Of a stretch of DNA of 64,000 bases, positions 19,700 through 23,136 are shown one piece after another (position 1 is the first letter of the stretch; every line of letters starts with the position of its first letter). Both the position numbers and the translations under genes were made by a program. The notes beneath the pieces are model-generated. The model searched no databases and had not been told where the DNA came from. It saw nothing but the letters and a program-made list of their open reading frames with translations. Source of the DNA: Cellulosimicrobium sp. Marseille-Q4280 (GTDB lineage: Bacteria; Actinomycetota; Actinomycetes; Actinomycetales; Cellulomonadaceae); the NCBI RefSeq assembly GCF_943181405.1, contig NZ_CALPBY010000002.1:62001-126000 (forward strand). Reading direction: 5' to 3'.

Positions 19700-19739
19700 C
19701 GCGCACGGTGCCTCGGTCACGTACCGCGGGGCAGCGCGC

Positions 19740-19745
19740 TAGACT
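19740..19745 (+). promoter_or_regulatory. Candidate internal promoter ahead of ylxR-infB (TAGACT)
   Basis: TAGACT (TANNNT) 40 bases after nusA and 34 bases before the ylxR start. It could supply infB independently of rimP-nusA. No -35 match. Confidence 0.45.
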
Positions 19746-19779
19746 GTCATCGACCGGGCCGCGTGCCCGCATCCCGACC

Positions 19780-20133
19780 GTGCCCACGGACCTCCCCCCG
19801 AACCCCGGAACTCCGGTGTCGGGTCCGGTCCGCACGTGCGTCGGGTGCCGGGAGCGCGACCTGAGATCCGTCCTCCTCCGTCTGGTCGTCGACCGGTCCG
19901 GCACGAGCGCCGACGAGCCCCGGCTCGCGGTCGACGTCCGGCGGTCGCTCCCAGGGCGCGGCGCGTGGCTCCACGCGACGACGCGGTGCCTCGAGGCGGC
20001 GGAACGCCGGCGGGCCGTCCCGCGGGCCCTGCGACTCGTAGGCCCGCTCGACCTCGCCGCGGTCCGCGCCGTCGTCGAGGCCCAGCAGGAGAAGGACGAT
20101 CGAACCGCGCGTCACGACCAGGACCCCGGATGA
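19780..20133 (+). CDS. ylxR: YlxR family RNA-binding protein (DUF448)
   Basis: 117 residues. The conserved N-terminal block RTCVGCRERDLRSVLLRLV and the GRGAWLHATTRCLEAAERRR block identify the YlxR family, which lies between nusA and infB in most bacteria and binds RNA; it has been linked to RNase P and to transcription control. GTG at 19780 is used; GTG at 19816, just before RTCVGC, is a shorter alternative. Followed by a 162-bp infB leader. Confidence 0.88.
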   Translation: MPTDLPPNPGTPVSGPVRTCVGCRERDLRSVLLRLVVDRSGTSADEPRLAVDVRRSLPGRGAWLHATTRCLEAAERRRAVPRALRLVGPLDLAAVRAVVEAQQEKDDRTARHDQDPG

Positions 20134-20210
20134 CCCGGGCCGGGTCACCCTGTGGCCGCACGCACGGCCGCACTGCACGACACGTCGACAAGGAAGCGGG
20201 TTAGAAGCCG

Positions 20211-20253
20211 ATGGGCACGCGATGAGTACCCAGCGATGAGCACCCAGCACTAA
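20211..20253 (+). promoter_or_regulatory. infB leader: three ATGA-overlapping mini-ORFs on a 14-bp tandem repeat
   Basis: Three minimal reading frames follow each other: 20211-20225 (Met-Gly-Thr-Arg-stop), 20222-20239 (Met-Ser-Thr-Gln-Arg-stop) and 20236-20253 (Met-Ser-Thr-Gln-His-stop). Each stop TGA overlaps the next ATG as ATGA. The DNA is a 14-bp tandem repeat (20221-20234 and 20235-20248, one mismatch) with a degenerate copy at 20210-20220. Because 14 is not a multiple of 3, each unit opens a new frame. The array sits 43 bases before the infB start and looks like a chain for termination-reinitiation, hence a possible translational control element. Function is inferred only. Confidence 0.6.
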
Positions 20254-20264
20254 CGACGGTCCTC

Positions 20265-20291
20265 CCTGTCCGGGGCGGGCCGAGACAGGAG
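20265..20291 (+). promoter_or_regulatory. Stem able to cover the infB ribosome-binding site
   Basis: CCTGTC (20265-20270) is complementary to GACAGG (20284-20289), which contains the first part of the infB Shine-Dalgarno AGGAG (20287-20291). Ribosomes moving through the mini-ORFs just upstream could influence whether this stem forms. Confidence 0.45.
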
Positions 20292-20295
20292 AGTT

Positions 20296-23136
20296 GTGGC
20301 AAAGGTCCGCGTCTACGAGCTCGCGAAGGAGCTCGGGGTGGAGAGCAAGACCATCATGACCAAGCTGACGGAGCTCGGTGAGTTCGTCCGCTCGGCATCC
20401 TCGACCATCGAGCCACCGGTGGTCCGCAAGCTGCGCGACGCCTTCCCCGCCGGGGGAGCAGCGCCGAGCCGTCCTGCGGCCGCCCGTCCGGCGCCCGCGG
20501 CGGCGTCGAAGCCCGCAGCACCGAAGCCCGCCCCGAAGGCGGAGCCGCGCCCGGCACCGGCGACGGAGGCCCCTGCCGCCGAGGCACCGGCCACGGCGCC
20601 CGCGCCGCAGGCACCTGCGGCCGAGGCAGCGGCGCCCGCAGAGCGTCCGGCGCCCGCGCCGGCTCCTGCGCCCGCGCAGAAGCCGACCGCCTCGCCCAAG
20701 CCGGGCGGTGGCTCCAACACGCCCGCGCCGCGTCCCGGCGCACGCCCCGGTGCGTCGCGCCCGGGCAACAACCCGTTCGCGCCCAGCCAGGGCATGCCGC
20801 GCCAGGGCGGTCCTCGCCCCGGCGCCCCGCGCCCGGGCAACAACCCGTTCGCGCCCAGCCAGGGCATGCCCCGTCCGGGCAGCCGTCCTGAGCGCACCGA
20901 CGCCGGGGCTGCTGCCGGTGGTGGCGAGCGCTCGGGCGGTCCCCGTCCCGGTGGTCCCCGCCCCGCGCCGCGTCCCGGTGGTCCCCGTCCGAACCCGGGC
21001 ATGATGCCGGGCCGCACCTCGGTCGGCCGTCCCGGTGAGCGTCCTGCTCCCGGTGGTCGTCCCGGCGGCGGCGGTGGCGGCGGAGGCCGCGGTGGCTTCG
21101 GCGGCCGTCCCGGTGGCGGTGGCGGTGCCCCCGGCGCCGGTGGCGGTTTCGCCGGTCGCCCCGGTGGTGGCGGTCGTCCCGGTGGCGCAGGCCGCGGGTC
21201 GACCCAGGGTGCCTTCGGTCGCGCCGGCGGACGCCCCGTCCGTGGACGCAAGTCGAAGCGGGCGAAGCGCCAGGAGTTCGAGCAGATGCAGGCGCCGTCG
21301 CTCGGCGGCGTGCAGGTTCCCCGCGGCAACGGCAAGACCGTCGTCCGCCTGCGGCACGGCTCGTCCCTGAACGACTTCGCCGACAAGATCGACGCGAACC
21401 CGGCGAGCCTCGTCACGGTGCTGTTCCACCTCGGTGAGATGGCGACCGCGACGCAGTCGCTCGACGAGGACACGTTCGGCACCCTCGCGTCCGAGCTCGG
21501 CTACATCATCGAGATGGTCTCGGCCGAGGAGGAGGACCGCGAGCTGCTCGGGTCGTTCGACATCGACCTGGACGCCGAGCTCGAGGCCGAGGGCGACGAC
21601 GAGCTGGCGGCGCGTCCGCCGGTCGTCACCGTCATGGGGCACGTCGACCACGGAAAGACCAAGCTCCTCGACGCGATCCGCCAGACGGACGTCGTCGCGG
21701 GCGAGGCCGGCGGCATCACGCAGCACATCGGTGCCTACCAGGTGCGCCACGAGCACGAGGGCAACGACCGCGCCATCACCTTCATCGACACCCCGGGTCA
21801 CGAGGCGTTCACCGCCATGCGTGCCCGTGGTGCCCAGGTGACGGACATCGCGATCCTCGTCGTGGCCGCCGACGACGGCGTCATGCCGCAGACCATCGAG
21901 GCGCTCAACCACGCCCAGGCGGCGAACGTCCCGATCGTCGTCGCGGTGAACAAGGTGGACAAGGAGGGGGCCAACCCCGCCAAGATCCGCCAGCAGCTCA
22001 CCGAGTACAACCTGGTGGCCGAGGAGTACGGCGGCGACACGATGTTCGTCGACGTCTCCGCGAAGCAGAACATGGGCATCGACGACCTCCTCGAGGCCGT
22101 CCTGCTCACGGCCGACGCCTCGCTCGACCTGCGCGCCAACCCCGACAAGGACGCGCGCGGTGTCGCCATCGAGGCCAACCTGGACAAGGGCCGCGGCGCC
22201 GTCGCGACCGTCCTCGTCCAGTCCGGCACGCTGCACGTCGGTGACGCGATCGTCGCCGGCACGGCCCACGGCCGCGTCCGCGCGATGTTCGACGAGCACG
22301 GCACCGCCGTGACCGAGGCGGGCCCCGCCCGTCCGGTCCTCGTGCTCGGGCTCGCGTCCGTGCCGAGCGCCGGCGACACGTTCCTCGTGGCACCCGACGA
22401 GCGCACCGCCCGTCAGATCGCCGAGAAGCGCGAGGCCGCCGAGCGCGCCGCCCTCCTTGCCAAGCGCCGCAAGCGCATCAGCCTCGAGGACTTCACGCAG
22501 GCGCTCCAGCAGGGCAAGGTCGAGACCCTCAACCTCGTCCTCAAGGGCGACGTGTCGGGTGCCGTCGAGGCGCTCGAGGACGCGCTGCTCAAGATCGACG
22601 TCGGCGAGGAGGTCGAGCTGCGCGTCATCCACCGCGGTGTGGGTGCCATCACGCAGAACGACGTCAACCTGGCGACGGTCGACAACGCGATCATCATCGG
22701 CTTCAACGTGAAGTTCGGCGAGCGCGTCGAGGACCTGGCCGAGCGCGAGGGCGTCGACGTCCGCTTCTACTCGATCATCTACCAGGCGATCGACGACGTG
22801 GAGGCAGCGCTCAAGGGCATGCTCAAGCCGGAGTACGAGGAGGCCCAGCTGGGCGCCGCGGAGATCCGCGAGATCTTCCGCTCCTCCAAGTTCGGCAACA
22901 TCGCCGGGTCGATCGTCCGGTCCGGCGAGATCCGCCGCAACGCCAAGGCGCGCGTGCTGCGCGACGGCAAGGTCGTGGGGGACAACCTCACGGTCGAGTC
23001 GCTCAAGCGGTTCAAGGACGACGCGACCGAGGTCCGCGAGGGCTACGAGTGCGGTATCGGGCTCGGGTCCTTCAACGACCTGCAGATCGGCGACACGATC
23101 GAGACGTTCGAGATGCGGGAGAAGCCGCGTTCCTGA
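20296..23136 (+). CDS. infB: Translation initiation factor IF-2
   Basis: 946 residues; GTPase that brings fMet-tRNA to the 30S subunit. N-terminal IF2N helix domain ([21 protein letters not shown]), then about 270 residues of Ala/Pro- and Gly/Arg-rich low complexity with two copies of [12 protein letters not shown] and a poly-Gly block, then a second IF2N-like element and the G domain: G1 GHVDHGKT at 448-455, G3 DTPGHE at 498-503, G4 NKVD at 552-555. The GTG start at 20296 has AGGAG 4 bases upstream. A strong hairpin follows the stop. Confidence 0.97.

Follow-up and report, generated by a model that had tools for sequence, protein, structure and literature searches.

The window analyzed here is a 64,000-nucleotide stretch of DNA from Cellulosimicrobium sp. 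Marseille-Q4280, whose genome is 4.86 Mb, and all of the leader features described below lie on its + strand. It encodes initiation factor IF2 from infB, a 946-aa frame with a GTG start (20296..23136), and a group of very short open reading frames (mini-ORFs) sits between ylxR and this gene; in Pfam terms, IF-2 (PF11987) and IF2_N domains lie downstream, with YlxR and then NusA domains upstream. Among the named matches listed, the infB most similar to that of the window is from Sanguibacter suaedae (96%; Micrococcales, class Actinomycetes), although entries from this genome or a very close one may be missing from that listing. The chain comprises mini-ORF1 (ATGGGCACGCGATGA, MGTR, 20211..20225), followed by mini-ORF2 (ATGAGTACCCAGCGATGA, MSTQR, 20222..20239) and mini-ORF3 (ATGAGCACCCAGCACTAA, MSTQH, 20236..20253), each of which starts within the preceding stop as ATGA. 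A first-pass annotation of this DNA had described these three frames and their ATGA junctions, the 42 nt between the last stop and infB (GTG at 20296), a 14-bp tandem repeat (GATGAGTACCCAGC / GATGAGCACCCAGC), and two complementary hexamers, CCTGTC at 20265 to 20270 and GACAGG at 20284 to 20289. All of these were located as claimed when the sequence was re-read, and TRF also reports a tandem repeat (20219-20248, 93% matches).

Two stretches in the window leader are predicted to pair strongly with the 16S tail: the SD-like AGGAAGCGGGTT ahead of mini-ORF1 (20191..20202, a candidate ribosome entry site) and the infB Shine-Dalgarno region GACAGGAGAG (20284..20293), at -9.8 kcal/mol each, with mini-ORF2 and mini-ORF3 lacking an SD (-4.2 and -2.2 kcal/mol). 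The mini-ORF3 stop directly precedes arm a (CGGTCC, 20257..20262), the 5' side of a hairpin whose other side is arm b (GCGGGCCG, 20275..20282). Between the two arms lies CCTGTC, complementary to the infB SD region, and arm b can alternatively pair with arm c (GGTCCGC, 20304..20310), which comprises infB codons 3 to 5. A search of positions 19700-20700 against Rfam 15 returned a single chance-level match, far under its gathering score, and thus no known family. A consensus scan of 19700-20500 found neither a sigma-70-type promoter nor an intrinsic terminator, a result that says little for actinobacteria. A WhiB7 binding site has been listed upstream of infB in M. abscessus, where a separate stress promoter is possible (PMC10727445), and the Streptomyces SigR regulon, as described in PMC5472188, includes infB and infC.

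We searched 394 Actinomycetes genomes for the IF2 N-terminus and obtained matches in 377, from which we sampled 139 leaders representing 138 distinct loci (L072 and L106 are one locus counted twice), 137 genomes, 125 genera, and 46 families; L137, where the contig ends, was left out. A chain, defined as at least three ORFs of 2 to 12 codons with start-stop overlaps within 160 nt before infB, was present in 132 of the 139 leaders and in at least one leader from every one of the 46 families, with a chance level of 205 in 13,900 dinucleotide shuffles and 1 in 1,399 control windows of the same loci. Five of the seven leaders that fail this rule are recovered by a relaxed one that allows the third ORF to follow a 2-nt gap or to exceed 12 codons (137/139, compared with 172/2,780 shuffles and 4/1,399 control windows). 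The remaining two are L026, which has two ORFs, and L136, which precedes a second IF2-like copy (open frame of 283 aa) in a genome (G390) whose full IF2 copy, L127 (986-aa frame), carries the chain. Among named loci it was found in 80 of 80, these being the best 80 of at least 577 matches, mostly Streptomyces and Cellulomonas. Outside the class, 40 leaders from the same phylum, fetched from 80 matched genomes, included none with a chain of three and 4 with a two-ORF chain. From these sequence comparisons the mini-ORF chain looks like a class feature of Actinomycetes, with unit length variable and unit number sometimes so, and the first-pass annotation was right in its tentative suggestion that ATGAGCAC runs precede infB in further actinobacteria as well. 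We note that a contig whose title names a Spirochaetaceae MAG (CAN_BIN15) bears a typical actinomycete infB leader (L215), identical to L009 (G097:C41) from a genome of class Actinomycetes, and encodes an IF2 N-terminus 85% like that of the window; the title of this record looks wrong.

The element is also closely tied to infB. A sequence model built from 21 leaders matches 122 of 148 genomes at an E value of 0.01, and the 109 matches with E values of ≤1e-5 never include two from one genome. All 82 of these for which the place of infB is known adjoin it, the other 27 being in genomes without an infB place on record. Weak matches (E between 1e-5 and 0.005) number 20, and 7 of the 13 that could be checked lie away from infB. 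In the window's own genome, 6 of 44 ATGA triplets have both spacings equal to 2 mod 3, and three of those six fall in two places, one a tandem repeat and the other unremarkable. A tandem GCGACCGATGA repeat in this genome (L263, ~1500-1530; G000:C1:266304-266329, minus strand) forms a fortuitous ATGA chain between genes that, judged from their translations, are regulator-like and acetyltransferase-like.

Arms a (GGTCCG) and b (CGGACC) are the two sides of a hairpin that immediately follows the last stop. It is recovered by RNAalifold in an alignment of leaders (A2) that holds 49 of 65 prepared sequences, 16 divergent or awkward-to-align ones having been omitted, a choice that favors its hairpin; 91.8% of the a:b pairs are formed, and covariation is 0.286 compared with 0.213 for shuffled alignments. 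A second alignment (A3), made with MAFFT, holds 79 of 116 leaders, with at most three per family, and was neither hand-picked nor informed by structure; a further one (A4) holds 21 of 28 sequences. In A3, a:b is 89.6% paired with covariation of 0.289 versus 0.193 shuffled. Arm b is also complementary to infB codons 3 to 7 (arm c), and c opens with the same hexamer as a. For this alternative b:c stem, 81.9% of cells in A3 are paired and covariation is 0.222 versus 0.158 shuffled. In all three cases none of 500 shuffles reached the observed value, counts that are not probabilities and come from shuffling that does not keep relatedness. Mutually exclusive downstream structures, one of which would shut the gene, are the mark of an attenuator, and by sequence and prediction the infB leader has them, with both a:b and b:c covarying.

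The most serious competing explanation, which we nonetheless consider unlikely, is that the chain is a real relay but arm b matches infB codons by accident, as a by-product of high GC content and of a conserved start of the protein; the hairpin would then serve only for insulation or stability. We examined b:c stems of at least 8 pairs in the 116 of 120 genera whose last stop lies 25 to 75 nt from infB. They occur in 84 of these genera but in only 22 of 580 leaders in which infB codons 2 to 8 were synonymously resampled, in 4 of 116 when infB nt 25 to 45 are used instead, and in 2 of 40 leaders from other classes, all of which argue against an incidental pairing. Other controls are kinder to it, as such stems form in 914 of 2,320 cases when arm c is swapped for that of another family and, with c in reverse order, in 35 of 116. 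RNAalifold likewise yields no consensus structure on the longer alignment from the stop to infB, which counts against a switch and fits an incidental pairing.

Codon usage at the start of infB bears on the same question. The third base of codon 5, where Arg permits synonymous change, varies with its partner in arm b (C-G 35, G-C 14, C-C 5, G-G 4; Fisher's test, 2e-6), and the association persists when counted by family (23, 9, 5, and 3, respectively; P = 0.001). This is the clearest covariation signal for b:c in the aligned sequences and one that an incidental pairing would not predict. Six of the seven other columns tested show no association of this type (P of 0.2 or more), and neighboring column 47 shows a weaker one in the same direction (P = 0.009), which counts against b:c. 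Arm c is also under unusual synonymous constraint: all 83 Val codons at position 4 are GTC or GTT and none is GTA or GTG, again against the incidental reading, whereas Val6 uses GTA in 40 and GTG in 16 of 120, and Ala4 is GCC in 21 of 21. Lys3 is AAG in 109 of 116, compared with 61 of 114 for the next Lys. Strong codon bias elsewhere in the infB start (a later Lys AAG in 105/120, a Ser AGC in 104/120) is on the side of coincidence.

The geometry of the leader would allow a ribosome to choose between the two stems. In the 92 genera whose b:c stem has 7 or more pairs, the median distance from the last stop to the end of arm a is 10 nt, arm b ends 13 to 17 nt before the infB start in 74, and arm c begins at +9 in 69; the b:c loop has a median length of 23 nt and contains both the SD and the start codon. 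A bacterial ribosome covers ~12 nt beyond the decoded codon, as given in a passage of PMC4833913, so that arm a should lie under a ribosome that has reached the last stop. What seems to be conserved in sequence is the position of the final stop, as judged from family f2 (4 leaders): its short overlapping ORFs lie farther upstream of infB, and in all four leaders a further or lengthened ORF of 21 to 25 codons puts the last stop 41 to 53 nt from infB, directly before a hairpin.

We predicted the cost of opening the region from the SD to +15, choosing this measure because the b:c stem leaves the SD inside its loop. It was adopted after a narrower measure tried first, opening from the SD to the start codon, gave no masking effect (4.89 kcal/mol for the full leader, 4.27 masked; P = 0.11). 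Across the 116 genera the median cost is 9.2 kcal/mol unmasked, the free leader itself thus being not very open, and it rises to 11.3, 13.4, 16.2, and 16.2 kcal/mol upon masking of 3, 5, 8, and 10 nt past the stop, compared with 9.4 kcal/mol when nt 12 to 17 are held open instead. Of the 116 genera, 90 show a rise of more than 2 kcal/mol and 14 a negative one, the latter including several from families f5 and f25. The median rise falls from 6.9 with native infB codons to 3.2 with resampled ones.

In the window itself the predicted folds differ in detail. The free leader folds as a:b (-38.8), and b:c forced in the full leader gives -36.3; once arm a is covered, the stem between CCTGTC and GACAGG gives the best fold (-34.3), which beats b:c and so counts against b:c there. 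The first-pass annotation had proposed this SD-covering stem as the link between the mini-ORFs and infB. It is possible, but it becomes the best fold only once the 5' arm of the hairpin is covered and is not favored in the free leader, where the larger hairpin at 20257-20282 wins. As a general mechanism we reject it, since stems of at least 6 pairs occur in 10 of 116 genera compared with 134 of 5,800 shuffles, and we keep it as a clade-restricted version. On these models it may be the local form of the closed state in the window's clade. The idea that the last stop is linked to the infB start region survives as a predicted structural link, in which the SD stem gives way to a widespread hairpin in competition with base pairing to infB codons 3 to 7.

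Where ribosomes would enter was judged from the energy with which the 16S tail pairs with the 17 nt preceding each start. Class-wide medians are -8.8, -2.7, -1.9, and -9.7 kcal/mol for ORF1, ORF2, ORF3, and infB, and the energy is -6 kcal/mol or lower in 77%, 4%, 2%, and 99% of cases, respectively, compared with 53, 25, 9, and 61% for composition shuffles of the same stretches. By this measure no SD of their own was found for ORF2 and ORF3 in leaders across the class, which on sequence grounds makes entry at ORF1 and, independently, at infB most likely. Because clear SDs stand only at these two places, reinitiation should be the only route to ORF2 and ORF3, and termination-reinitiation along the chain, as the first-pass annotation had envisaged, fits this anatomy.

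A quite unlikely alternative is that the relay acts positively, retaining ribosomes or 30S subunits close to the start of infB and raising its translation by scanning or by reinitiation from the last mini-ORF. Leader ORFs near a gene have been proposed, in part of PMC4833913, to raise its translation by reinitiation, and a single leader (L098, family f18) has the chain and no hairpin, with 18 nt to infB, as such a booster would have it. However, the last stop lies 35 to 54 nt before infB in 105 of 120 genera. Coupling needs overlaps of 4 or 1 nt and is nearly abolished by a gap of ~20 nt in E. coli and Haloferax, according to PMC10666635, and at this distance the last stop should therefore not feed infB directly. 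The covarying hairpin between the last stop and infB, as well as the SD that infB has of its own in 99% of cases, also speaks against a positive role.

On balance we lean toward the infB leader of Actinomycetes being a reinitiation-sensing translational attenuator with negative feedback on IF2. We infer that ribosomes would load at the SD of mini-ORF1, terminate after ~4 codons, and then have to reinitiate twice with no SD to help, at ORF2 and at ORF3, such that the last stop would be reached only if both reinitiations succeed. A ribosome there would cover arm a and free arm b, which would pair with the first infB codons (arm c) and shut infB; in the window's clade, the freed CCTGTC could instead pair with the infB SD to the same end. 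Should a shortage of IF2, initiator tRNA, or initiation capacity make reinitiation fail, the ribosome would be lost, a:b would form, and infB would be translated from its own SD by de novo initiation. The sign of such a switch in vivo is deduced from the arm that the ribosome would cover: high IF2 would complete the relay and close infB, and low IF2 would let the relay fail and leave it open. IF2 is a plausible signal given what is described for E. coli in parts of PMC2268962, where reinitiation rose ~2.5-fold with IF2 overproduction (a mutant initiator tRNA was used), possibly depends on IF2 more strongly than initiation de novo, and works poorly in the absence of an SD; two SD-less reinitiations in series would for this reason make a natural IF2 meter.

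The details of the chain are consistent with a relay of this kind. Spacing between neighboring ATGA motifs is 2 mod 3 in 203 of 223 pairs, with 12 and 8 in the other phases (125 genera, chain rule not applied), compared with 2 of 18 elsewhere in the same loci. At the 240 junctions of 120 genera, where overlaps are present by construction, NTGA accounts for 230, TGATG for 7, and TAATG for 3; ATGA is thus replaced at 22 (GTGA 11, TTGA 1, TGATG 7, TAATG 3), and stop and next start share 4 or 1 nt, as they do in ORFs coupled by termination-reinitiation. ORF1 has 4 codons in 90 of 120 genera, ORF2 has 5 in 103, and ORF3 has 5 or 6 in 97, and the two unit lengths occur in 18 combinations. Codons and peptides drift, with lengths more tightly held than sequence, and no arrest codon or peptide in the mini-ORFs is conserved across leaders. 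The sequences therefore point to the reading frame, with its start-stop overlap, as the element that is kept. Cellulomonas avistercoris (L187) has four units (MATR, MSTHR, MSTQR, and MSTQH), an extra whole unit with every overlap intact. Streptomyces-like leaders (L021, L022, L104, L199, L208, and similar ones) carry a two-codon TTG CGA TGA frame ahead of ORF1, which may be a fourth, very short unit of their chain; as a general feature of the element we rejected it, since it was seen in these leaders and is not general.

It is improbable, in our judgment, that the relay uses the same RNA switch to meter something other than IF2, such as termination and recycling (RF2, RRF), peptidyl-tRNA drop-off, initiator tRNA formylation, free subunits, or an initiation-blocking antibiotic. 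Termination is part of each unit, and TGA serves as 237 of the 240 first and second stops, but the ATGA overlap forces it there, and the free stop of ORF3 uses TAG in 51, TAA in 45, and TGA in 24 of 120 genera. ORFs of 4 to 6 codons are short enough for peptidyl-tRNA drop-off, a further point for such a signal. The WhiB7 site listed upstream of infB in M. abscessus (PMC10727445) could also be read this way. Against the alternative as a whole stands the fact that the controlled gene encodes IF2. Although a related sequence recurs in most leaders, we regard as very improbable the view that the repeat is a DNA- or RNA-binding protein motif (CGATGAGYAC) with accidental frames, given the 2 mod 3 spacing, the survival of overlaps where the motif is lost (GTGA, TAATG, TGATG), and the presence of SDs only before ORF1 and infB.

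If the attenuator reading is true, a bacterial regulator that senses the initiation step, as opposed to elongation or a metabolite, is near-universal in a large class. It would offer a direct, testable way into the question of what sets IF2 levels, along with a natural reporter of initiation in antibiotic-producing bacteria and their relatives. The leader also shows that overlapping ORFs of 3 to 7 codons, invisible to gene annotation, can be strongly selected class-wide. We found no earlier description of the infB mini-ORF chain in the open-access full-text literature, a scope that most subscription papers fall outside. The parts are of known kinds, and what appears new, as far as could be found, is the way they are combined, with start-stop units in series for sensing initiation joined to a switch that extends into the coding region.

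In yeast GCN4, several very short upstream ORFs precede the main one, and reinitiation that depends on an initiation factor complex decides whether the main ORF is translated. We hypothesize, tentatively and as a prospect we rate just short of even, that the infB leader is a bacterial counterpart of this logic: an ancient, class-wide, infB-specific sensor of initiation and reinitiation, in which completion of an SD-less counting relay throws an RNA switch that extends into the coding sequence of IF2 and closes a homeostatic loop on IF2. The likeness lies in the several very short upstream ORFs and in the proposed initiation-factor-dependent reinitiation. Unlike those of GCN4, the ORFs of the infB leader overlap start to stop and have no scanning gap, the putative readout is a hairpin switch and not the bypass of later upstream ORFs, and the controlled gene encodes an initiation factor itself.

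In the leader-ORF attenuators of erm and trp, ribosome position selects between mutually exclusive hairpins. The whiB7 attenuator, as presented in part of PMC10727445, resembles the infB leader in the same respect, with ribosome position on a leader ORF picking between such hairpins. All three respond to elongation stalling at particular codons or under drug, whereas the infB leader keeps a repeated start-stop overlap while its peptides and codons vary. Termination-reinitiation coupling of overlapping genes shares the ATGA and TGATG overlaps and the dispensability of an SD in between (PMC6728339, PMC10666635), but the ORFs of the infB leader are mostly of 3 to 7 codons, are chained, and seemingly serve as a sensor and not to set protein ratios. 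Another parallel is infC, where IF3 adjusts its own synthesis through an IF3-dependent initiation step at a noncanonical start (ATC in Streptomyces, as noted in part of PMC5472188). There a single start codon is read through the fidelity function of IF3, whereas the infB leader would combine a relay with an RNA switch, and both genes may be subject to feedback at the initiation step.
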